Part shown: positions 12,037 to 34,642 of the stretch, piece by piece
Layout: the number at the start of each line of letters is the position of its first letter
How positions within the stretch are numbered: the first letter of the stretch is position 1
NCBI GenBank assembly: GCA_030620515.1
Contig: JAUXEM010000014.1
Span: 1-35,564, forward strand
Direction: 5' to 3'
Origin: Salinivirgaceae bacterium
GTDB taxonomy: Bacteria; Bacteroidota; Bacteroidia; Bacteroidales; SZUA-534
DNA length: 35,564 nucleotides
The notes under the pieces: generated by a model
The model's database searches: none
What the model was told of the DNA's origin: nothing
What the model saw: only the letters and a program-made list of their open reading frames with translations
Program-made: the position numbers and the translations under genes

Positions 12037-12260
12037 CTTCTTATTTTTAATCATTCTAAACTACGGTGTTTTTATCCAATCCAATCCATGATATTTTACC
12101 ATATTTCTATCTGACAATTGTCATTAAAACAATCAAAAATCATCATAACTAATTAGTATTCTTGCCATTAACAATATGGTTAAGAATTTCTCAAATTTAC
12201 CTTCATTTTACCTATGTTCTAAAAAACAGTTTTGGGGTTTTCAAATACGATGCAAACGTT

Positions 12261-12268
12261 TACTTTTG
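12261..12268 (+). promoter_or_regulatory. Candidate -7 box for the rseC-rnf operon
   Basis: TACTTTTG matches the TAnnTTTG -7 consensus and ends 20 bases before the rseC ATG at 12289. No convincing TTG lies 19-21 bases upstream. Its position inside the longest rseC frame argues for the downstream start. Confidence 0.45.
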
Positions 12269-12288
12269 CTTCAAACAAACAAAATTTG

Positions 12289-12702
12289 ATGAGTTCATCT
12301 ACCATTACGCATCAAGGAATTATAGATTCCATTACAAACAATTTAATTAAAGTTAAAATTGTTAACATGTCGGCTTGTTCAGCCTGCCATGCAAAGGGAG
12401 CATGCAGTGCATCTGATATGGAAGAAAAAATAATTGATGTTACACCAAACGGGGAGAGTTACAAAATAGGCGAACCTGTTACTATTTATTCTAAATTAAC
12501 TACCGGTTTTAAAGCCCTATTTTATGGGTATATATTTCCATTATTAGTTGTACTTTTCATGCTAATACTTTTAACATCTTTATCGGTAAAAGAGACAACA
12601 GCAGGGCTTTTTTCAATTGGTATACTAGCCCCATATTATTTTGGATTATATTTATTCCGGAATAAAATTAAGAAGTCATTTATATTTGAAATATTAAAAT
12701 AA
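12289..12702 (+). CDS. rseC: RseC/MucC family membrane protein
   Basis: A 137-residue protein of the RseC family, which is linked to sigma-E regulation and to reduction of the SoxR iron-sulfur cluster. In Bacteroidota it commonly precedes the rnf genes. The N-terminal part starts THQGIIDSI and carries a cysteine cluster (C30, C33, C39 in SACSACHAKGACSA) that could bind metal or an Fe-S cluster. Two membrane helices follow (about 76-98 and 104-124). The frame is open upstream to a TTG at 12232 and an ATG at 12250. Both are disfavoured because a -7 promoter box sits at 12261-12268 and homologues begin shortly before the HQG motif. rnfB follows after 12 bases. Confidence 0.85.
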   Translation: MSSSTITHQGIIDSITNNLIKVKIVNMSACSACHAKGACSASDMEEKIIDVTPNGESYKIGEPVTIYSKLTTGFKALFYGYIFPLLVVLFMLILLTSLSVKETTAGLFSIGILAPYYFGLYLFRNKIKKSFIFEILK

Positions 12703-12714
12703 ATCAATTTCAAA

Positions 12715-13602
12715 ATGAGTATTACTATTGTTTATACCATTGTTTCATTAGGCGCCTTAGGTCTTTTAGCTGCAATTATTCTATATTTTGTAGCTCAAAA
12801 GTTTAAAGTAATTGAAGATCCACGGATTGATGAAACAGAAGGAATGTTGCCAGGCGCAAACTGTGGTGGTTGCGGTTTCCCCGGGTGTCGAGGCTTTGCT
12901 GAAGCTCTGGTAAAAGCCGATAACATATCAAAATTAAATTGCCCTGTTTCAGATGCAGCAGGCATGGTGGCTATCGCAAACTATTTAGGGCACGAAGCCG
13001 TAAAAGCCACACCCAAAGTAGCAGTTGTAAGATGCAATGGCACTTGCGAGAATCGTCAAAAAACCAACAATTATGATGGAGCAACATTGTGCACAATTGA
13101 ATCGGCATTATACGCAGGTGACACGGGCTGTTCATATGGATGTTTAGGGCATGGCGAATGTGTGGATGCTTGCGCCTTTGATGCCATGTACATGGATGCC
13201 GACACTGGCTTACCTGTTATAATTGAAGATAAATGTGTTGCTTGTGGTGCTTGCGTTGCGGCTTGCCCTAAAGACATAATTGAGCTTAGAAATGCAGGTC
13301 CTAAAAGCCGACGAATATTTGTATCGTGTATAAACGAAGACAAAGGTGGAGTTGCACGCAAAGCATGTAAAGTAGCTTGTATTGGTTGTGGAAAATGTGT
13401 TAAAGTATGCCCATTTGAGGCAATAACACTTGTTAACAATTTGGCATACATTGACTACAACAAGTGTAAGCTTTGTAGAAAATGTGTTCTAGAATGTCCT
13501 ACAGCGGCCATTCATGAATTAAACTTTCCACCCAAAAAAGCACCAGCTCCTAAACCAGAAGTTGTTGCTGAAAATAAGGGTACAGACGAGAAAAAAGCAT
13601 AA
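12715..13602 (+). CDS. rnfB: Electron transport complex subunit RnfB (polyferredoxin)
   Basis: A 295-residue RnfB, the subunit that takes electrons from ferredoxin. One N-terminal membrane helix (about 3-27) is followed by the Fe-S domain with C50, C53, C58 and C76 (CGGCGFPGC). Four ferredoxin-type cysteine sets come next: C139/C143/C149/C153, C174/C177/C180/C184, C222/C225/C228/C232 and C251/C254/C257/C261. The last about 25 residues are Pro/Ala/Lys/Glu-rich, as in other long RnfB proteins. The ATG has no Shine-Dalgarno sequence, unlike several other genes of this operon. The complex couples ferredoxin:NAD+ electron transfer to Na+ or H+ movement; which ion is used here cannot be read from this subunit. 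Confidence 0.97.
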   Translation: MSITIVYTIVSLGALGLLAAIILYFVAQKFKVIEDPRIDETEGMLPGANCGGCGFPGCRGFAEALVKADNISKLNCPVSDAAGMVAIANYLGHEAVKATPKVAVVRCNGTCENRQKTNNYDGATLCTIESALYAGDTGCSYGCLGHGECVDACAFDAMYMDADTGLPVIIEDKCVACGACVAACPKDIIELRNAGPKSRRIFVSCINEDKGGVARKACKVACIGCGKCVKVCPFEAITLVNNLAYIDYNKCKLCRKCVLECPTAAIHELNFPPKKAPAPKPEVVAENKGTDEKKA

Positions 13603-13627
13603 ATTAATATCATAAATTTCTCTAAAA

Positions 13628-13634
13628 AAGGAGG
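13628..13634 (+). promoter_or_regulatory. Strong Shine-Dalgarno site of rnfC
   Basis: AAGGAGG ends 4 bases before the GTG start of rnfC. Such a perfect anti-SD match is unusual for this phylum and supports the GTG as the start. Confidence 0.75.
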
Positions 13635-13638
13635 AAAA

Positions 13639-14970
13639 GTGTTAAAAACATTTAAAAAAGGTGGTGTTCATCCGGCTGAAAATAAACTCTCAGCAAATTC
13701 GGCTATTACAATGGCTGAATTACCAAAAATTGCTACTATCCCATTAGGGCAGCATATTGGTGCACCTGCAACACCCTTAGTAAAAAAAGGCGATGTCGTA
13801 AAAGTTGGTCAAATTGTAGCTCAGAGTAGTGGATTTGTTTCAGCAAATATTCACTCTTCCGTTTCCGGAACTGTGGCAAAAGTTGAAGATACATTAGATT
13901 CAACAGGTTTTAAACGTCCAGCAATAATAATTAATGTAGAAGGCGACGATTGGTTAGAGGAAATTGACCAATCTAAGGATATTAAAAAAGAAATATCACT
14001 TTCGGCAGAAGACATTAAAAAAAGCGTTCAAAATGCTGGTATTGTTGGACTTGGAGGAGCAACATTTCCAACTCATATAAAGCTATCGCCTCCACCTGGA
14101 AAAACTGCCGAAGTGTTAATACTTAATGGCGTTGAGTGCGAACCTTATCTTACCGCTGACCATAGGCTAATGCTTGAAAAAGGCGAAGAGATGGTAATTG
14201 GTACCAAAATATTAATGAAAGCCCTAGGTGTAAACAAAGCTTTTATTGGCATTGAGAACAATAAACCTGACGCCATTAAACACCTTAGCGATATTTGTAA
14301 AAACTATGAAGGAGTAGAAGTAACTCCATTAAAAGTAAAATATCCGCAAGGGGGCGAAAAACAATTAATAAAAGCAGTAATAAACCGCGAAGTACCTTCT
14401 GGTACTCTTCCAATTGAGGTTGGAGCTGTTGTTCATAATGTTGGTACTGCCTTTGCTGTTTACGAAGCTGTACAAAAAAACAAACCACTTATAGAAAGAG
14501 TAGTTACAATTACTGGAAAATCGGTAAAAACTCCTTCTAACTTTATGGTACGTATTGGTACACCAACTATTCAGCTTATTGAAGCCGCCGGTGGTGTTCC
14601 TGATGATACTGGGAAAATGGTTAGCGGTGGTCCAATGATGGGTAAAGCAATCAGTTCAGTTGATGTTCCAATAACTAAAGGATCATCTGGAGTATTAATA
14701 TTCAACAACACAGAAGCAAGACGCCGTGAAGTTGAGCCTTGTATTCGCTGCGGAAAATGTGTATCGGTTTGCCCAATGGGACTTGAACCATATATTTTGA
14801 TGACATTTGCCGAAAAGCAAATGTGGGAAGAAACAGAAACTGAAAGTGCCATGGATTGTATTGAATGTGGCTCTTGTATGTTTACTTGTCCTGCAGATAG
14901 ACCTCTGTTAGATTATATAAGATTAGGAAAAACAACTGTTGGTAAAATAATAAGATCAAGAAATCAATAG
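13639..14970 (+). CDS. rnfC: Electron transport complex subunit RnfC
   Basis: A 443-residue RnfC, the peripheral subunit that binds NAD(H) and FMN. The N-terminus has the family start TFKKGGVHPAENKLSA. The nucleotide-binding glycine-rich segment is GIVGLGGATFPTHIKL (residues 134-149), followed by LNGVECEPYLTADHRL. Two [4Fe-4S] motifs are C368/C371/C374/C378 and C407/C410/C413/C417. Translation begins at GTG, set by a strong Shine-Dalgarno sequence 4 bases away; the first residues match homologues. rnfB ends 36 bases upstream. A 96-base gap then separates rnfC from rnfD. Confidence 0.97.
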   Translation: MLKTFKKGGVHPAENKLSANSAITMAELPKIATIPLGQHIGAPATPLVKKGDVVKVGQIVAQSSGFVSANIHSSVSGTVAKVEDTLDSTGFKRPAIIINVEGDDWLEEIDQSKDIKKEISLSAEDIKKSVQNAGIVGLGGATFPTHIKLSPPPGKTAEVLILNGVECEPYLTADHRLMLEKGEEMVIGTKILMKALGVNKAFIGIENNKPDAIKHLSDICKNYEGVEVTPLKVKYPQGGEKQLIKAVINREVPSGTLPIEVGAVVHNVGTAFAVYEAVQKNKPLIERVVTITGKSVKTPSNFMVRIGTPTIQLIEAAGGVPDDTGKMVSGGPMMGKAISSVDVPITKGSSGVLIFNNTEARRREVEPCIRCGKCVSVCPMGLEPYILMTFAEKQMWEETETESAMDCIECGSCMFTCPADRPLLDYIRLGKTTVGKIIRSRNQ

Positions 14971-15066
14971 CATGCCACTCACGAGGGTAGCGAATAATAA
15001 TATAAAAGCTATTTCTCAAAGAAGGACATATTTGAAAATATGACATATGACTAACATTAAAAATAG

Positions 15067-16071
15067 ATGAATAGATTAATAAACATATCTCCATCGCCCC
15101 ACGTGGCTGGAGAATATTCCGTAAAAAAGATAATGTATGGAGTTGTTTTGGCACTTTTACCTGCCTTAGCTGCTTCTGTATATTTCTTTGGAACAGGCGC
15201 AATTATTGTAACTCTGGTTTCCATAGCCAGCTGTGTTGCATTCGAATACTTAATTCAAAAGTTTATTATTAAAACTACACCTAAAATTTCTGATGGTTCA
15301 GCAATTTTAACCGGCTTACTTTTAGCATTTAATGTTCCAAGTAACTTACCAATATGGATTATTATTATTGGAGCTTTAATTTCCATTGGAGTTGGAAAAA
15401 TGTCGTTTGGAGGTTTAGGGCAGAATCCTTTTAACCCTGCTTTAGTAGGCCGTGTATTTCTTTTAATATCGTTCCCAGTACAAATGACAAGTTGGCCAAA
15501 ACCACTTGGTTTTTTAACAGGCTATACCGATGCTGTAACTGGACCCACGGCTTTAGGAAAATTGAAAGAAGGCATTATGAATGGGGAAACAGTCTCAAAT
15601 ATTATGCAAGATATACCTAGTCATATGGAAGCATTCTACGGACACATGGGAGGAAGTATGGGAGAAATAAGTGCTCTGGCTCTTATTTTAGGTTTCGCAT
15701 TTATGCTTTACAGGAAGATTATCACTTGGCACATTCCAGTTATTTTAGTGGGAACAGTTTTTGCCTTTACAGGAATTTTACATTTTGCAAATCCTGAGCA
15801 ATTCGCTCATCCAGTATTTCACATTTTAACTGGAGGTGTTATGCTAGGCGCTATTTTCATGGCCACCGATATGGTTACATCCCCAATGAATCCGAAGGGA
15901 ATGATAATTTTCGCAGTAGGAATAGGCGTTATAACGGTTCTTATTCGAAGTTTCGGTGCATACCCTGAAGGTATATCATTTGCAATTCTAATTATGAACG
16001 CTTTTGTTCCTATAATTAATAAATACGTGAAACCTTCACGTTTTGGAGAGGAGGTTAAAAATGGCCAATAA
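15067..16071 (+). CDS. rnfD: Electron transport complex subunit RnfD
   Basis: A 334-residue integral membrane subunit homologous to NqrB. It starts ISPSPHVAGEYSVKKIMYGV, as in other RnfD proteins, and has about nine hydrophobic helices. The covalent FMN attachment site is in DAVTGPTALG, with the likely flavinylated Thr161 (T-G-P-T). GLGQNPFNPALVGRVF (residues 116-131) is also conserved. The ATG has no Shine-Dalgarno sequence and follows a 96-base non-coding gap after rnfC, which contains only a small CATATT/AATATG hairpin (15027-15042). Its 3' end overlaps rnfG by 11 bases. Confidence 0.97.
   Translation: MNRLINISPSPHVAGEYSVKKIMYGVVLALLPALAASVYFFGTGAIIVTLVSIASCVAFEYLIQKFIIKTTPKISDGSAILTGLLLAFNVPSNLPIWIIIIGALISIGVGKMSFGGLGQNPFNPALVGRVFLLISFPVQMTSWPKPLGFLTGYTDAVTGPTALGKLKEGIMNGETVSNIMQDIPSHMEAFYGHMGGSMGEISALALILGFAFMLYRKIITWHIPVILVGTVFAFTGILHFANPEQFAHPVFHILTGGVMLGAIFMATDMVTSPMNPKGMIIFAVGIGVITVLIRSFGAYPEGISFAILIMNAFVPIINKYVKPSRFGEEVKNGQ
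16045..16054 (+). promoter_or_regulatory. Strong Shine-Dalgarno site of rnfG
   Basis: GGAGAGGAGG inside the end of rnfD, 6 bases before the ATG at 16061. It decides the rnfG start over the frame's earlier start at 16043. Confidence 0.75.
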
Positions 16072-16708
16072 AAAAGAATCAACATTTATAAATATGGTAG
16101 TAGCATTACTAATTGTAACATTAGTAGCAGCAACAACCTTAGGTTTTGTTTATGAGTTTACAAAAGCACCTATTGCTTTAGCAAAACTCAATAAAAAGTT
16201 AAATGCTATAAAATTAGTAGTTCCTGAGTTTACAAATAACCCTGACTCTATTAAATACGAAATACCTGTTGAGGGTGGGTTACCAGTAATGGCATACCCA
16301 GCATACAACAACGAAGAGTTGGTAGGAACAGCCATTGAAACTTATACCATGAAAGGTTTTAGTGGCTTAATAAAGCTTATGGTAGGTCTTGCACCTGATG
16401 GCACTATTCATAGCGTTTCAGTACTTGAGCATAAAGAAACTCCCGGACTTGGCACACACATGAGTGATGAATGGTACATTAATCAATACAAAGGGAAAAA
16501 CCCAGGTACAGATAATTTAAAAGTCAAAAAAGACATGGGTGAAATTGATGCAATTACTGCTGCAACAATTAGCTCGCGTGCATTTTCTGATGCTGTTCAA
16601 AAAGCTTATGATGCATATGTAAATTATAATATAGAACCTGAATCTGCTGTAGTAGATTCAACCTTAAACACCCAAAAAGAAGGAGGCGAAAATGAGTCAG
16701 CTAACTAA
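16061..16708 (+). CDS. rnfG: Electron transport complex subunit RnfG
   Basis: A 215-residue flavoprotein subunit homologous to NqrC. One N-terminal membrane helix (about 9-31) anchors a periplasmic FMN-binding domain. The covalent FMN site is DAITAATISSRAF, with Thr169 the expected attachment residue; GVSVLEHKETPGLG-like sequence is present as SVSVLEHKETPGLGTH. The frame extends upstream to 16043, but the Shine-Dalgarno sequence at 16045-16054 points to 16061. The gene overlaps rnfD by 11 bases and rnfE by 17, suggesting translational coupling. The C-terminal tail is polar. Confidence 0.96.
   Translation: MANKKESTFINMVVALLIVTLVAATTLGFVYEFTKAPIALAKLNKKLNAIKLVVPEFTNNPDSIKYEIPVEGGLPVMAYPAYNNEELVGTAIETYTMKGFSGLIKLMVGLAPDGTIHSVSVLEHKETPGLGTHMSDEWYINQYKGKNPGTDNLKVKKDMGEIDAITAATISSRAFSDAVQKAYDAYVNYNIEPESAVVDSTLNTQKEGGENESAN
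16680..16686 (+). promoter_or_regulatory. Strong Shine-Dalgarno site of rnfE
   Basis: AAGGAGG within the 3' end of rnfG, 5 bases before the rnfE ATG at 16692. Confidence 0.75.
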
Positions 16709-17276
16709 TTTCACAAAAGGACTTTTAAAAGAAAATCCTGTATTTGTTCTCCTACTTGGTCTTTGTCCTACTTTAGGGGTTACAACCACAGCGTTTAATG
16801 GATTGGGAATGGGACTTGCAACAACCTTTGTTCTTGTAATGTCAAACATGGTTGTTTCGCTTGTTAAGAGCGGGATTCCTGACAAGGTTCGTATTCCAGC
16901 ATTTATAGTAATTATTGCATCGTTTGTTACAGTTGTTGAATTAACTATGCAAGCCTATTTACCTTCACTATTTGAAAGCCTAGGGCTATTCATTCCTCTT
17001 ATTGTAGTAAACTGTGTTGTTCTTGGGCGTGCAGAAGCTTTTGCATCTAAAAACAATGTAGGATCGTCAATTATTGATGGCTTAGGAATGGGCATAGGGT
17101 TTTCACTTGCATTAACCTTACTTGGTGCTATTAGAGAGTTTTTAGGAACTGGTGAAGTATTCGGTCTTCAAATATTTGATAGCAGCTATGGTATGATAGT
17201 GTTTATCTTAAACCCTGGAGCTTTTATTGTACTAGGCTACCTTATATTAGTTGTTAATAGATTAAATAAAGCATAG
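16692..17276 (+). CDS. rnfE: Electron transport complex subunit RnfE
   Basis: A 194-residue membrane subunit homologous to NqrD, with about six hydrophobic helices. Conserved [10 protein letters not shown] (Cys25) and [14 protein letters not shown] (Cys108) are present. In the related Nqr and Rnf complexes, these cysteines together with those of the partner subunit RnfA hold a [2Fe-2S] cluster within the membrane. It overlaps the end of rnfG by 17 bases and is followed after 11 bases by rnfA. Confidence 0.97.
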
Positions 17277-17280
17277 GAGG
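17274..17280 (+). promoter_or_regulatory. Strong Shine-Dalgarno site of rnfA
   Basis: TAGGAGG overlapping the rnfE stop codon, 7 bases before the rnfA ATG at 17288. Confidence 0.75.
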
Positions 17281-17287
17281 AAATATA

Positions 17288-17860
17288 ATGACATATTTTG
17301 TAATAATAATAACTGCGGTATTTGTTAACAACATTGTTTTAATGCAGTTTTTAGGTATATGTCCTTTCTTAGGAGTATCTAAAAAAATATCTACTGCAGC
17401 GGGTATGACTGGCGCAGTTGCTTTTGTAATGGTAATTGCTACTATTGTAACTTACTTGATTCAAAAATCGGTTCTAGATGTATTTGAAATTGGTTTTTTA
17501 CAAACAATAACTTTTATCTTAATTATTGCATCGCTAGTTCAGCTAGTTGAGATAATTTTGAAGAAGGTTAGTCCTGCTTTGTTTCAAGCACTTGGCGTAT
17601 TTTTACCATTAATTACTACCAATTGTGCTATTCTTGGCGTTGCAATTATGACAATACAAAAAGATTACAACCTACTTGAAGGGGTTGTATTTGCAATAGC
17701 TTCAGCAGTTGGATTTGGTTTAGCACTTATCCTTTTTGCAGGGCTTCGTGAACATCTTGATTTAATGAACGTTCCTAAAGGTATGAAAGGTGTGCCAATT
17801 GCTTTTGTTGTAGCCGGTATTTTAGCTATGGCATTTCTTGGTTTTTCTGGTTTAGTATAA
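17288..17860 (+). CDS. rnfA: Electron transport complex subunit RnfA
   Basis: A 190-residue membrane subunit homologous to NqrE and paired with RnfE. It has about six helices. The conserved cysteine segments are [11 protein letters not shown] (Cys25) and [11 protein letters not shown] (Cys113), which with RnfE are known to hold an intramembrane [2Fe-2S] cluster. The late position of rnfA after rnfE fits the B-C-D-G-E-A order; proteobacterial clusters use another order. It is the last gene of the operon, followed by a strong terminator. Confidence 0.97.
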
Positions 17861-30419: not shown

Positions 30420-31190
30420 TTAATGAAAACTTTCTAGTGAGTCTAGCGGATGATCAATTATATATTTAGACCCACGATAAAACATATATGCGGAAATTGC
30501 CATAAATGTATGACTAATATCTAAATGATTAAACCATTTATGAAGTGCCCATTCATTCATAAAGAACAGTGCTGCTAAAGCTGCAAAACCCACTGCTATC
30601 AAAAATCGAGCACTACCCTTGCTTCTTGTTTTATAAAATATAATCAAGTTAAAACTCAATACAATTATCATAAAACCATAAAAGGTATGCACCTCAACAA
30701 AGAAAAAGTTAAGTGTTGAAAAAGTAATTATAATAAAGAAAATTAATTCGAACACATTAAACCATGCAAAAAAAGTTCCAATGGAGGGTTTAATAATTTT
30801 ACGAGCATATTCAATCGATGCACGTTCAACCAACATTACAGCAAACATACTGGTAAGCCAACCTGGAAGTTTCCAAGGATTTGCGGCAGCATTTAATTTA
30901 TTTTCTGGTAATACTTGTTTCACAAATTCTATCCACCCTTGCGAAAGTTCCCATTGCGATTCAAATGCATACAAAAAAGCATGCCCTACTACTCCACCAA
31001 TAAAGGTTGCTATACCCATGGATAAAAAGTAGTATTTAAGATATAAGTGTACTTTATTTTTAATCGGAAAAGTAGTAAGTTTATAATAAGCAAAAAAACA
31101 AACGGCCGATACTATTAAATCAGTAAGCACTGTTACAGGCTCATCAATTCGCAAGCCTCCAATAAATATTTGTGTAAATTCAAACTGCAT
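30420..31190 (-). CDS. Seven-helix membrane protein of unknown function
   Basis: A 256-residue integral membrane protein I cannot assign to a named family. Seven hydrophobic segments are visible (about 18-37, 50-75, 110-125, 140-163, 166-186, 194-212, 224-240). Polar residues stand in or next to helices: Ser57 and His70 in helix 2, and His217, His222, Asp224 and His227 at the start of helix 7. This recalls the His/Asp/Ser sets of the CREST group (alkaline ceramidases, hemolysin III-like proteins), but the exact spacings are not shown to match. The longest frame starts at TTG 31208, which lies in the -7 box; ATG 31190 is preferred. It stands alone between two converging/diverging units. Confidence 0.8.
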   Translation of the reverse strand: MQFEFTQIFIGGLRIDEPVTVLTDLIVSAVCFFAYYKLTTFPIKNKVHLYLKYYFLSMGIATFIGGVVGHAFLYAFESQWELSQGWIEFVKQVLPENKLNAAANPWKLPGWLTSMFAVMLVERASIEYARKIIKPSIGTFFAWFNVFELIFFIIITFSTLNFFFVEVHTFYGFMIIVLSFNLIIFYKTRSKGSARFLIAVGFAALAALFFMNEWALHKWFNHLDISHTFMAISAYMFYRGSKYIIDHPLDSLESFH

Positions 31191-31205
31191 ATTAAAAATT
31201 TTGAG

Positions 31206-31236
31206 CAAATGTATAATTCTAATTAGGTGTTTGCAA
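31206..31236 (-). promoter_or_regulatory. Promoter of the seven-helix gene
   Basis: On the - strand TACATTTG (31206-31213) is a perfect -7 box and TTG (31234-31236) lies 20 bases upstream, a good match to the Bacteroidota consensus. The ATG at 31190 lies about 15 bases beyond the box. Confidence 0.65.
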
Positions 31237-31922: not shown

Positions 31923-33236
31923 TTAACTCAGCTTGGTGTTGATATTTTTCCTTATACTTTGAAAGTATATAACTGTTTGAGCAGCTCCACGTGCAAATAA
32001 AAATAAAATAAAGGCAAACCATAAAGCATGGTTACCCCAACTTTCGTTTAAAAAGTACCAAACAGGAAAAAAGACAGCAAATGCAGCTACTAACATACTA
32101 TTCCGCATTTGCTTTGTTGCAGTTAGTCCAACATATACTCCATCCCAAATAAACGACCCAACAGATGCAATTGGAATTAAAACTATCCAAAAGGTATAGT
32201 TTTTGCAAATATCAATAATTGCTTCCTGATTAGTTAGTAATTTCAACAAGCCAATATTACCTATCCAATAAATTATTGTAAATAAAACAGCTAGTAGCCC
32301 CCCCCACTTAAAACTTAATTTAATTGCTTGTTTAAGTTTTAATAAATCTTTACTACCATAATATTTTCCAGTTAAAGCTTCTGCAGCATAAGCAAATCCA
32401 TCGGTTAAAAATGAAAATATGAATAGGAATTGCAATAATAAAGTATTTGCAGCCAAAACATTATCGTCGGTTGAAGCAGATTGGGATGTGAAAAATGTAA
32501 ATACTGCAAGCAAACTAATTGTTCTAATAAAAATATCTCGATTAATCTTTACAAAATAGGTTAATTGCTCTCTATTAAAAACATTTACCCAGTTTAAAAA
32601 CTTTAGATACAATCTGTATTTTACAATTAAAAAAACGATTCCTGTAATTAAGCCAACATATTGTGCTATAACAGTACCCAGTGCTACTCCATCCGATTTC
32701 ATCCCAAAATACTTTACAAAAAGCAAGTTCAATACAATATTAACAGCATTAATTAATAGTGCTATTATCATAGGTATTCTGGTATTCTGCATACCAATAA
32801 ACCATCCACTTAAAACATATAAGCTTATGGTGGCAGGTGCAGCCCATATTCTAATAAAAAAATATTCACGTGCAAAAAATTCCACATCACTACTGCCATC
32901 AATTAACCAAAAAGTAAATTTCGCAATAGGCACCTGTAAGATAATTAACAACAAAGCACCGATAACAGAAATGGTTAAACCTCTGAAAAGAATGCTAACT
33001 ATTTCGGTTTGGTTTTTTGCCCCAAAAGATTGTGCTGTTAATCCGGTAATTCCCATTCGCAAGAAACCAAATGCCCAATAAATAATATTAAAAACCATTG
33101 CTCCAATAGCAATAGCACCAACATATATATTTGACTCTAAATGTCCGGTAATTGCCAAATCAACCATTCCTAATAAAGGAATAGTAATGTTACTAATTAC
33201 ATTAGGAATAGCTAGTTGTAGAATTTTCTTATTCAT
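31923..33236 (-). CDS. MATE family efflux transporter (DinF-like)
   Basis: A 437-residue membrane protein with about 12 helices in two halves. It starts KKILQLAIPNVISNITIPLLGMVDLAITGHL, broken up by normal MATE variation: the early proline-containing helix and the 'D-x-A-x-x-G' at about residue 26-32 are typical, and helices 7-12 repeat the fold. These transporters export cationic or aromatic compounds in exchange for Na+ or H+. The substrate is unknown. It starts 15 bases after the stop of the PepSY-type gene, so they are probably co-transcribed. The rest of the spacer downstream shows no terminator. Confidence 0.92.
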   Translation of the reverse strand: MNKKILQLAIPNVISNITIPLLGMVDLAITGHLESNIYVGAIAIGAMVFNIIYWAFGFLRMGITGLTAQSFGAKNQTEIVSILFRGLTISVIGALLLIILQVPIAKFTFWLIDGSSDVEFFAREYFFIRIWAAPATISLYVLSGWFIGMQNTRIPMIIALLINAVNIVLNLLFVKYFGMKSDGVALGTVIAQYVGLITGIVFLIVKYRLYLKFLNWVNVFNREQLTYFVKINRDIFIRTISLLAVFTFFTSQSASTDDNVLAANTLLLQFLFIFSFLTDGFAYAAEALTGKYYGSKDLLKLKQAIKLSFKWGGLLAVLFTIIYWIGNIGLLKLLTNQEAIIDICKNYTFWIVLIPIASVGSFIWDGVYVGLTATKQMRNSMLVAAFAVFFPVWYFLNESWGNHALWFAFILFLFARGAAQTVIYFQSIRKNINTKLS

Positions 33237-33251
33237 AGCTTGTTTTATTTG

Positions 33252-33803
33252 CTACGCATACATAAAAAATAAAATAAATGGAATTAAAATACCAAATGCT
33301 GTTAAAACAGCTCCCCTCCTTGTTATTCCATTTTTCCCTTTTACCATAAATAAGCCTGAAACTGCTAACCAAATTAATGATACGGCATAAATATCAGCAA
33401 ACCACATCCAAAGACGTTTAGAATGGTTGTAATGCAAATAATTAAATGAGTGAAAAACAGGACGTCTTTTCAATTTATCCAAATTTGCAACTCCTGTTTT
33501 AGTATTTATGAAAAGTGTTCCATTATCAATAAAAACCTTAATAGTATTTTTTCCTGCACTATAGTGTTTCTTATAGCTGCCTTTTTCTTCTATCGACTCT
33601 AAAAAAATCTTTATTGCTTTTTCATCAATATCACTTCCATTGTTAAATTCCGTTTGGTAACTTTCTGATTGGACAATATAATTAGGATTCCAATCCTTAA
33701 TATGGTTTAAGGCAATGCCAGAAAGACCATAAATTATGCTAGCAGCAAAAAATACATAACCTAAGTCACGGTGTATTATACGATTCAGTTTAAAAAGCTT
33801 CAT
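33252..33803 (-). CDS. PepSY-associated membrane protein
   Basis: A 183-residue membrane protein of the PepSY-TM type. An N-terminal helix starts at RIIHRDLGYVFFAASIIYG (about 8-27), with a conserved-looking HRxxG. A soluble middle part follows (35-125), then two C-terminal helices at about 130-155 and 160-182. Histidines flank the helices (His11, His34, His117, His123, His126), which in related proteins bind haem or metal. Related PepSY-TM proteins are found in iron reduction systems. A reductase role is only inference. It has its own -7 box and is followed by the MATE gene after 15 bases. Confidence 0.8.
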   Translation of the reverse strand: MKLFKLNRIIHRDLGYVFFAASIIYGLSGIALNHIKDWNPNYIVQSESYQTEFNNGSDIDEKAIKIFLESIEEKGSYKKHYSAGKNTIKVFIDNGTLFINTKTGVANLDKLKRRPVFHSFNYLHYNHSKRLWMWFADIYAVSLIWLAVSGLFMVKGKNGITRRGAVLTAFGILIPFILFFMYA

Positions 33804-33845: not shown

Positions 33846-33880
33846 AATAAAAAAAGCGAGAAACTATAGTCCCTCACTTT
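33846..33880 (-). terminator. Terminator of the His/Cys-rich lipoprotein gene
   Basis: On the - strand AAAGTGAG (from 33880) pairs with CTCGCTTT (ending 33853), 8 bp with one G-U, followed by a T-run. It lies about 25 bases after the lipoprotein stop. Confidence 0.75.
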
Positions 33881-33904
33881 CTTTATATATATTATTATAA
33901 TATT

Positions 33905-34642
33905 TTAGTGCTCATGCCCGCAAGGCTTCGTCTCTTCTTTTGCTGAATCACAAGGTGCAGCTTTTTCTTTACCACCACAAGGTTTAGCTTCAGCACTATG
34001 ATCGTGACCTTCATGATTCTGGTCGTGTTCAACTTTAGCTTCCTTTTTACCCTTACAACAACCAGCTTCTTTTTTAGCACAATCTTTTTTTGAACATTCG
34101 TCGTACTTTACAACTTCTAAATAATAAGTAGATAAGTATCCTTTTTCACTAGCCTCAATTTCGGCTTTCCACCTAGCAATTTTCTCTAAAGAAGCATGAT
34201 GATCAACACCTTCTTTAAGCTCCACATCTGCTTCTTCTTTGTTCTCTTTCATTGCTTCATGAATACTCTTTTCGTACTCATCAACTTCAGCTAAATCCAT
34301 TTTAGATTCGCCAACAATTCCTGTTAAGCAAACTGCACTACCTTCAAGCTCAGCATTAAAATTACCCATAGTTTCACCAGCCTCACCATGAATAGATTTT
34401 GACGGACAAGATGAAAATATTTTTACTCGTTTACCACCATGCTTACATACGTGATCAACAGTACCTTGAACCGTAAGTTCTTTACCAATAAAATCGGCAG
34501 CAACTACCAAAAATGAATCTACTGAAATATAATCACACTCTTCAATAGCCTTATTCTGACTATCTTCATTCGTAGTTTTTGTATTAGTACTACATGCTAC
34601 AAAAATGGCAGCAACAAAAAACATTAACATTATTTTTTTCAT
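33905..34642 (-). CDS. Lipoprotein with OB-like core and His/Cys-rich C-terminal tail
   Basis: A 245-residue lipoprotein: signal with FVAC (Cys17). The middle part (about 40-115) reads like a small OB-type fold (LTVQGTVDHVCKHGGKRVKI), with C66 and H68 in HVCKHGG and a further Cys (C78). A helical, Glu/Lys-rich region follows (about 115-180). The C-terminal tail of about 65 residues contains 7 Cys and 6 His, with CxxKKDC, GCCKG, HDQNHEGHDH, and three PCG/PCD-type units. This composition points to binding of Cu, Zn, Ni or similar metals. The family is not identified. It sits with a PepSY-TM gene and a MATE gene on the same strand, but has its own terminator. A metal storage or handling role is inference. 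Confidence 0.8.
   Translation of the reverse strand: MKKIMLMFFVAAIFVACSTNTKTTNEDSQNKAIEECDYISVDSFLVVAADFIGKELTVQGTVDHVCKHGGKRVKIFSSCPSKSIHGEAGETMGNFNAELEGSAVCLTGIVGESKMDLAEVDEYEKSIHEAMKENKEEADVELKEGVDHHASLEKIARWKAEIEASEKGYLSTYYLEVVKYDECSKKDCAKKEAGCCKGKKEAKVEHDQNHEGHDHSAEAKPCGGKEKAAPCDSAKEETKPCGHEH

Follow-up and report, generated by a model that had tools for sequence, protein, structure and literature searches.

In Bacteroides, the XusABC system, which comprises a TonB receptor, a DUF4374 surface lipoprotein, and an inner-membrane PepSY protein, is iron regulated, and its lipoprotein and PepSY protein cooperate (PMC13142918, PMC10434189). The inner-membrane importer for ferrous iron is given as unknown in the XusABC paper (PMC13142918). 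FoxB and CrpH have PepSY domains between TM helices and conserved His residues near the membrane faces, with at least four TM segments, and we took this type to require at least four TM helices and two His per face; in CrpH, a PepSY_TM protein, the periplasmic-face pair is required for function (PMC13038864). In the flavinylated PepSY systems (DUF2271/DUF4198 with ApbE), a PF16357/PF03929 protein is found with a small exported partner, and such proteins have been proposed to act as envelope iron reductases (PMC8238504). Thus far, the reduction and handing on of periplasmic iron and copper in Bacteroidota are incompletely known. Here, we describe a gene pair encoding an OB-fold lipoprotein and a PepSY protein. 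By analogy, the pair would work like XusABC and the FoxB/CrpH-type systems, and by the tests run it is a member of none of them. No description of a metal module of this composition was found in the open-access literature searched, in which the one paper that combined the relevant topics concerns the lipocone superfamily.

The window, that is, the whole stretch of 35,564 nucleotides analyzed, comes from a Salinivirgaceae bacterium; the features discussed are collected in Table 1.

Table 1 Features of the lipoprotein-PepSY locus in the window
Feature	Positions	Strand	Basis
Lipoprotein gene, 245 aa, OB-fold core and disordered Cys/His tail	33905..34642	minus	ORF, homologues, AlphaFold2 model
Signal peptide and lipobox, lipidation Cys17	34592..34642	minus	Sequence; C17 at least 90% conserved in alignment A1
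Core motif G60-T-V-D-H64-V-C66-K-H68-G-G-K71, candidate metal site, end of strand 1 and loop 1-2	34430..34465	minus	Conservation; strand 55-65 in AlphaFold2 model
Cys/His-rich C-terminal tail, residues 184-245, mostly predicted disordered	33908..34093	minus	Composition, Cys columns, AlphaFold2 model
Terminator-like hairpin and U-run between lipoprotein and PepSY genes	33847..33886	minus	18 pairs, z -3.9
PepSY_TM_like_2 partner, 183 aa, three long helices; H11, H34, H124 conserved	33252..33803	minus	PF16357 51.9 bits, cut-off 27
MATE transporter gene, 15 bp after the PepSY gene, present at few of the loci	31923..33236	minus	PF01554
DUF6962 gene	30420-31208	minus	

The pair resembles XusABC in that a lipoprotein would work with an inner-membrane PepSY protein. 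It differs in that the lipoprotein belongs to an unrelated family, that a surface-export signal was not found in it, and that most loci have no recognized TonB receptor adjoining. DUF4374 is absent: the window lipoprotein has no Pfam match, and DUF4374 is not among the 16 families matched by 67 family members. Unlike FoxB and CrpH, the PepSY partner has only three long helices, with conserved His only at positions 11, 34, and 124, and an OB lipoprotein gene lies upstream of it. With the flavinylated systems, the pair shares a PF16357-type protein and a small exported partner; here, however, an OB lipoprotein carrying a Cys/His motif takes the place of the flavinylated protein.

The original prediction, made from the sequence, had described a lipoprotein with a small OB-like core containing CKHGG and with no recognizable family, and all of this was borne out. 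The ORF starts with ATG, and its lipobox-type signal ends in FVAC17. Searches with the protein returned zero Pfam families up to E = 1, only matches far below cut-off in NCBIfam, and no chain of a solved structure (PDB) below E 0.4. An AlphaFold2 model built with 67 family members is confident over the core, with mean pLDDT values per ten residues of 93 to 98 at residues 41 to 130 and 151 to 180; these drop to 45 to 62 in the tail (residues 191 to 245). The modeled core matches OB folds with Z scores of 10.2 to 12.0 over 83 to 110 residues among the 50 matches listed, nearly all of which are OB-fold proteins, judged by their titles. Although these matches hint at nucleic acid binding, we discounted it for an exported lipoprotein. 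An OB fold by itself says nothing about metal.

The lipoprotein is probably membrane anchored and faces the periplasm, since it has no apparent surface-export signal, which we take to be acidic residues after the lipidated Cys. Positions +2 to +6 of the window protein (STNTK) hold no acidic residue, and only 1 of the 26 lipobox-bearing members found without motif seeding, as recognized by a crude lipobox pattern, has two or more.

Homologues of the lipoprotein are present in 24 of the 60 genomes searched, the window's own included. Our set of 111 unique members combines 40 from searches without a motif seed and 71 from a contig scan seeded with HVC[KR]HGG[KQ], of which the best 80 of 153 matches were used; 8 duplicate loci were removed from the locus set. 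No family gene was called in loci L076 and L146, yet the motif is encoded in both regions (in L076 via locus L029). Because the contig scan was seeded on the motif itself, we took motif counts from the 40 unseeded members. A profile scan of 395 genomes drawn evenly across the Bacteroidota gave matches in 91; this is not an exact family count, because scoring was limited to 8 candidates per genome and many of the lowest-scoring matches extend over the signal peptide alone. Homologues beyond the Bacteroidota, in metagenome bins labeled KSB1, Phycisphaerales, and Acidobacteria (L136, L139, and L149), reflect either transfer or binning error.

CKHGG is part of the best-conserved stretch of the core, H64-x-C66-x-H68-G-G. 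C66 is present in all 40 unseeded members; H64 and H68 occur together in 27, and C71, without either His, in 10, so that the two forms are mutually exclusive. Among the remaining members, H64 stands alone in two, and one has none of the three residues. C66 and G108 are invariant in alignments A1 and A3, and G60, G70, F95, and G101 are conserved to at least 90% in A3. We infer that H-x-C-x-H-G-G is a conserved candidate metal site, and the alternation of His and Cys around C66 looks like a change of ligands.

The C71 form corresponds to Pfam DUF4920: PF16267 is matched by 11 of the 67 members (best E, 4.2e-16), and hhalign aligned the H-x-C-x-H and DUF4920 forms with 98.8% probability and an E value of 8.5e-17 over 131 columns, the signal peptide included. 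The two have a homologous core and the same invariant Cys66, and a PepSY gene is next in 6 of the 10 DUF4920-type loci found here (one of the other four is at a contig end). Their differences lie in the ligands: the ten DUF4920-type proteins carry C66 and C71 without H64/H68, whereas the window protein has H-x-C-x-H and a Cys/His tail. The Cys pair motif VCxxxGC, derived from these ten, is missing from the window protein, in which C66 is accompanied by H64 and H68 and position 71 is Lys; PF16267 does not match the protein up to E = 1 and is also absent from the window's genome. Since the window lipoprotein fails both the DUF4920 model and the motif, we regard it as a sister branch of DUF4920 rather than part of it. 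The ten Cys-Cys members may form one clade. The open-access literature searched contains no mention of DUF4920 and a single paper mentioning PF16357.

In 99 of the 111 unique loci (71 of the 111 are seeded, from the best 80 of 153), the lipoprotein gene is immediately followed by a PepSY_TM_like_2 gene in the same orientation; by origin, these are 32/40 unseeded and 67/71 seeded loci. Among the other 12 loci, 4 run off the contig, 6 have a different gene, and 2 have a displaced PepSY gene: in L153 it immediately precedes the lipoprotein gene, and in L105 a 60-aa ORF on the opposite strand lies between the two. For unseeded H-x-C-x-H members, the PepSY gene is next in 25 of 27 (the exceptions are L070, at a contig end, and L094). 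All eight strong matches of the H-x-C-x-H profile in the 395 Bacteroidota genomes (E below 1e-35) have PepSY directly downstream. From the PepSY side the pairing is not obligate: 35 of the 66 PF16357 genes above cut-off in these genomes are just downstream of an OB lipoprotein of the superfamily and 31 are not. These counts rest on 79 profile-scan rows plus a row for G090, without which the pairs number 34; 21 weak rows, 5 of which cover part of the core, were left out, and none is beside a PF16357 gene. PF16357 and the OB lipoprotein co-occur in 37 genomes (sets of 62 and 76; hypergeometric P = 4e-15, relatedness ignored). PF16357 is above cut-off in 62 of the 395 genomes versus 199 for DUF4920, and most DUF4920 proteins therefore cannot have a PepSY partner.

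The neighboring PepSY-TM and MATE genes named in the original prediction are both present, and they fared differently: PepSY is likely a functional partner, and MATE is a rare addition. We rejected MATE as a core partner because it is second downstream in only 4 of the 111 loci (the window, L057, L058, and L113). A wider operon was likewise rejected as the module, as no third gene is widely conserved among the 111 loci; no other family occurs within six genes of more than 17 loci, and the ABC ATPase cluster that comes next in frequency is found around 17 loci, at varying positions. The DUF6962 gene follows the pair in the four close relatives (the window, L057, L058, and L059), three of which, together with L113, have MATE second downstream. 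Elsewhere, multiheme c-type cytochrome genes lie near the pair in L091 (4724-6586 and 9998-11344), and CxxCH-bearing proteins are among the first genes of L071; these hint at wider redox links. Within the window, genes at 12232-17860 on the plus strand resemble, by eye, an Rnf electron transport cluster.

The PepSY partner is modeled with a mean pLDDT of 91.9. Its long helices span residues 2 to 33, 130 to 150, and 163 to 182; the first two are separated by strands and two short helices, which form a small alpha/beta domain. Foldseek with this model found no solved match at E ≤ 0.001, and a second structural comparison (best Z, 5.3) gave no match to solved reductases; neither result argues against a reductase. 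In alignment A4, which holds 51 of the 95 partner sequences, H11 and H124 are conserved in 51/51 and H34 in 50/51. H34 and H124 sit at the ends of the helices that flank the alpha/beta domain, on what would be the periplasmic side; by analogy to CrpH, they could hold a putative heme. A second conserved His on the cytosolic face was not seen among the 51 sequences, so that a full two-heme path is not evident in a single PepSY chain. Because only H11 marks the other face, a PepSY dimer may be needed for the full path.

Our favored reading, held with moderate confidence, is that the two genes make up an envelope metal-redox module: the lipoprotein would present the PepSY heme protein with a metal, most likely iron. 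The lipoprotein would be anchored in a membrane, probably on the periplasmic side, and its OB core would bind a transition metal, most likely iron, via His64, Cys66, and His68, or a small metal-carrying complex. The PepSY protein would pass electrons across the inner membrane via heme on His34 and His124 near the periplasmic face and would reduce, or take electrons from, the metal held by the lipoprotein; the model for this step is the iron reduction proposed for PF16357/PF03929 proteins (PMC8238504). In the window lineage, the disordered Cys-rich tail would add soft ligands and could capture or buffer metal near the core site. More tentatively, OB-fold proteins with alternative His2Cys or Cys2 sites may be metal-presenting partners of minimal three-helix PepSY heme reductases, with the Cys-rich tail loading the site in the window lineage. 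An unnamed lipoprotein family, part of the uncharacterized DUF4920 family, and part of PF16357 would thereby be joined into one testable module with three named residues; if true, both the lipoprotein family and those DUF4920 proteins that are paired with PepSY would gain a function.

The close gene pairing would also suit a lipoprotein that helps to assemble the PepSY protein or forms a structural part of it, for instance by delivering heme; its Cys/His motif would then bind heme or fix the fold instead of binding a free metal. CcmE is a membrane-anchored heme chaperone with a periplasmic OB fold, and its structure (1j6q) matches the lipoprotein core with a Z score of 10.4 and an rmsd of 2.3 over 86 residues. 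It is, however, one of many OB folds and ranks no higher than unrelated nucleic acid-binding ones among the matches listed; its heme site is at the C-terminal end, whereas the lipoprotein motif is at strand 1 and loop 1-2. The apparent ligand change around C66 also argues against a subunit role, as does the hairpin between the two genes, which has a counterpart in L058 (3390-3512, minus strand; z -3.5). Such a hairpin may lower the expression of downstream genes and would yield more lipoprotein than PepSY protein; an excess of lipoprotein fits a carrier better than a fixed subunit. In L057 and L059, a hairpin with a U-run was not evident in the last 150 bases of the gap, which were folded, and in several other lineages the pair genes overlap by up to 17 bases. 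On balance, we regard a subunit or heme-delivery role as rather unlikely.

Several loci connect the pair with iron. In L063, L069, and L075, it lies near TonB receptor, DUF4876, and DUF4857 genes (the gene families were read on L075 and transferred to the other two by sequence cluster). L075 encodes, all on one strand, a TonB receptor, DUF4876, DUF6850, the lipoprotein, PepSY, an ABC ATPase, a 223-aa protein without a Pfam match, and DUF4857; L063 and L069 differ in having the TonB/DUF4876 unit on the opposite strand, and the ABC ATPase of that cluster is uncalled in L069. The order in L075 is that of Bacteroides thetaiotaomicron BT3633-BT3625, apart from one additional gene, BT3630 (fimbrillin), and different labels for BT3629 and BT3631. 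BT3633-BT3625 are reported to be upregulated 37- to 128-fold under iron depletion, and Table 7 of that study labels BT3629, like BT3628, as PepSY associated (PMC10434189). Elsewhere, BT_3629 appears as an uncharacterized protein within a set of fucosylated proteins (PMC8931616). From gene order, we infer that BT3629 is the lipoprotein homologue. A MATE gene, PG0827, a possible counterpart of the window MATE gene, is reported as the gene most induced by iron depletion in P. gingivalis (PMC10434189). FeoB-type genes lie near the pair in L077 and L078, and a TonB receptor is directly upstream of it in L092 and L093. The iron reading rests on a minority of loci, since the annotated genes around the pair mostly have unrelated housekeeping or envelope roles.

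Copper is the main rival to iron: the pair could supply or reduce copper for respiratory heme-copper oxidases, like the PepSY_TM system CrtA/CrpH in Bordetella, and the tail would then bind Cu(I), which Cys and His ligands suit. COX1 is above cut-off in 21 of the 32 family-bearing genomes tested, the window's included; in addition, CrpH supports heme-copper oxidases (PMC13038864) and is encoded alongside a copper TonB receptor (PMC12914433). On the other hand, 9 of the 32 genomes have no COX1 match at E ≤ 0.001, so a strict tie to these oxidases is not supported; the nine include G003, a genome that encodes the Cys tail, as well as three in which TonB/DUF4876 genes lie close to the pair (G297, G039, and G059). 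The gene-order counterpart in B. thetaiotaomicron responds to iron depletion (PMC10434189). We consider copper unlikely to be the metal and keep iron as the preferred reading.

The tail has the composition given in the original prediction, with 7 Cys and 6 His in the last 65 residues, PCG/PCD/PCG units, and a His-rich stretch; about 0.6 Cys and 1.3 His would be expected from the frequencies in comparison proteins (0.88% Cys, 1.9% His). At least 5 Cys in the last 65 residues occur in 15 of 1,398 proteins of at least 120 aa, and 6 of these 15 rows, two of them duplicates, are the lipoprotein family; the 1,398 were drawn from the retrieved loci without removing family members or duplicated loci. 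Most relatives lack a tail: 100 of the 111 homologues end within 14 residues past the core (71 of the 111 are motif seeded, from the best 80 of 153). Longer Cys-bearing tails are found in the window protein, L057, L058, L059, and L095, all from one bacterial family, and longer His-bearing tails in L062, L121, and L148. Thus, core plus tail recurs in 5 of the 6 homologues from that bacterial family, for which the search covered 20 genomes and gave a match in 5; the sixth homologue, L093, a second copy in G003, has no tail.

This restricted distribution would fit low-complexity drift without function, as would the divergence of the tails, which are 26 to 46% identical among the window protein, L057, L058, and L059 (63 to 69% for the cores) and hold 6, 1, 1, and 2 His, so that His is not conserved. 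Enrichment across the whole family is at most weak: 30-residue windows with at least 5 Cys plus His occur in 9/40 unseeded members versus 42/451 other proteins of 130 to 300 aa, and those with at least 6 in 2/40 versus 15/451 (the lipoprotein control in this comparison comprised 16 proteins only). The Cys positions, however, are kept beyond chance while the rest diverges. Aligned alone, the four tails have 4 Cys columns in common; 200 shuffles yield 0.8 on average and never more than 3. When the full-length sequences are aligned, any two of the window protein, L057, and L059 have 5 Cys columns in common, and each of them has only 3 in common with L058. Since these four columns persist despite far greater divergence than in the core, and since L095 from the same bacterial family also has a Cys-bearing tail, we consider pure drift quite unlikely, even though the tail is missing in most homologues.

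The proposal that the tail sequesters a metal at the envelope stands in part. We still favor metal binding in the envelope. Because the Cys tail occurs in a single bacterial family, however, sequestration was rejected as a family-wide function, and we consider it more probable that the lipoprotein and the PepSY protein exchange metal or electrons. Cys-rich inserts that are placed ahead of the last strand rather than C-terminally are found in L082 (7046-7558), L083 (8041-8505), and L096 (7950-8771).
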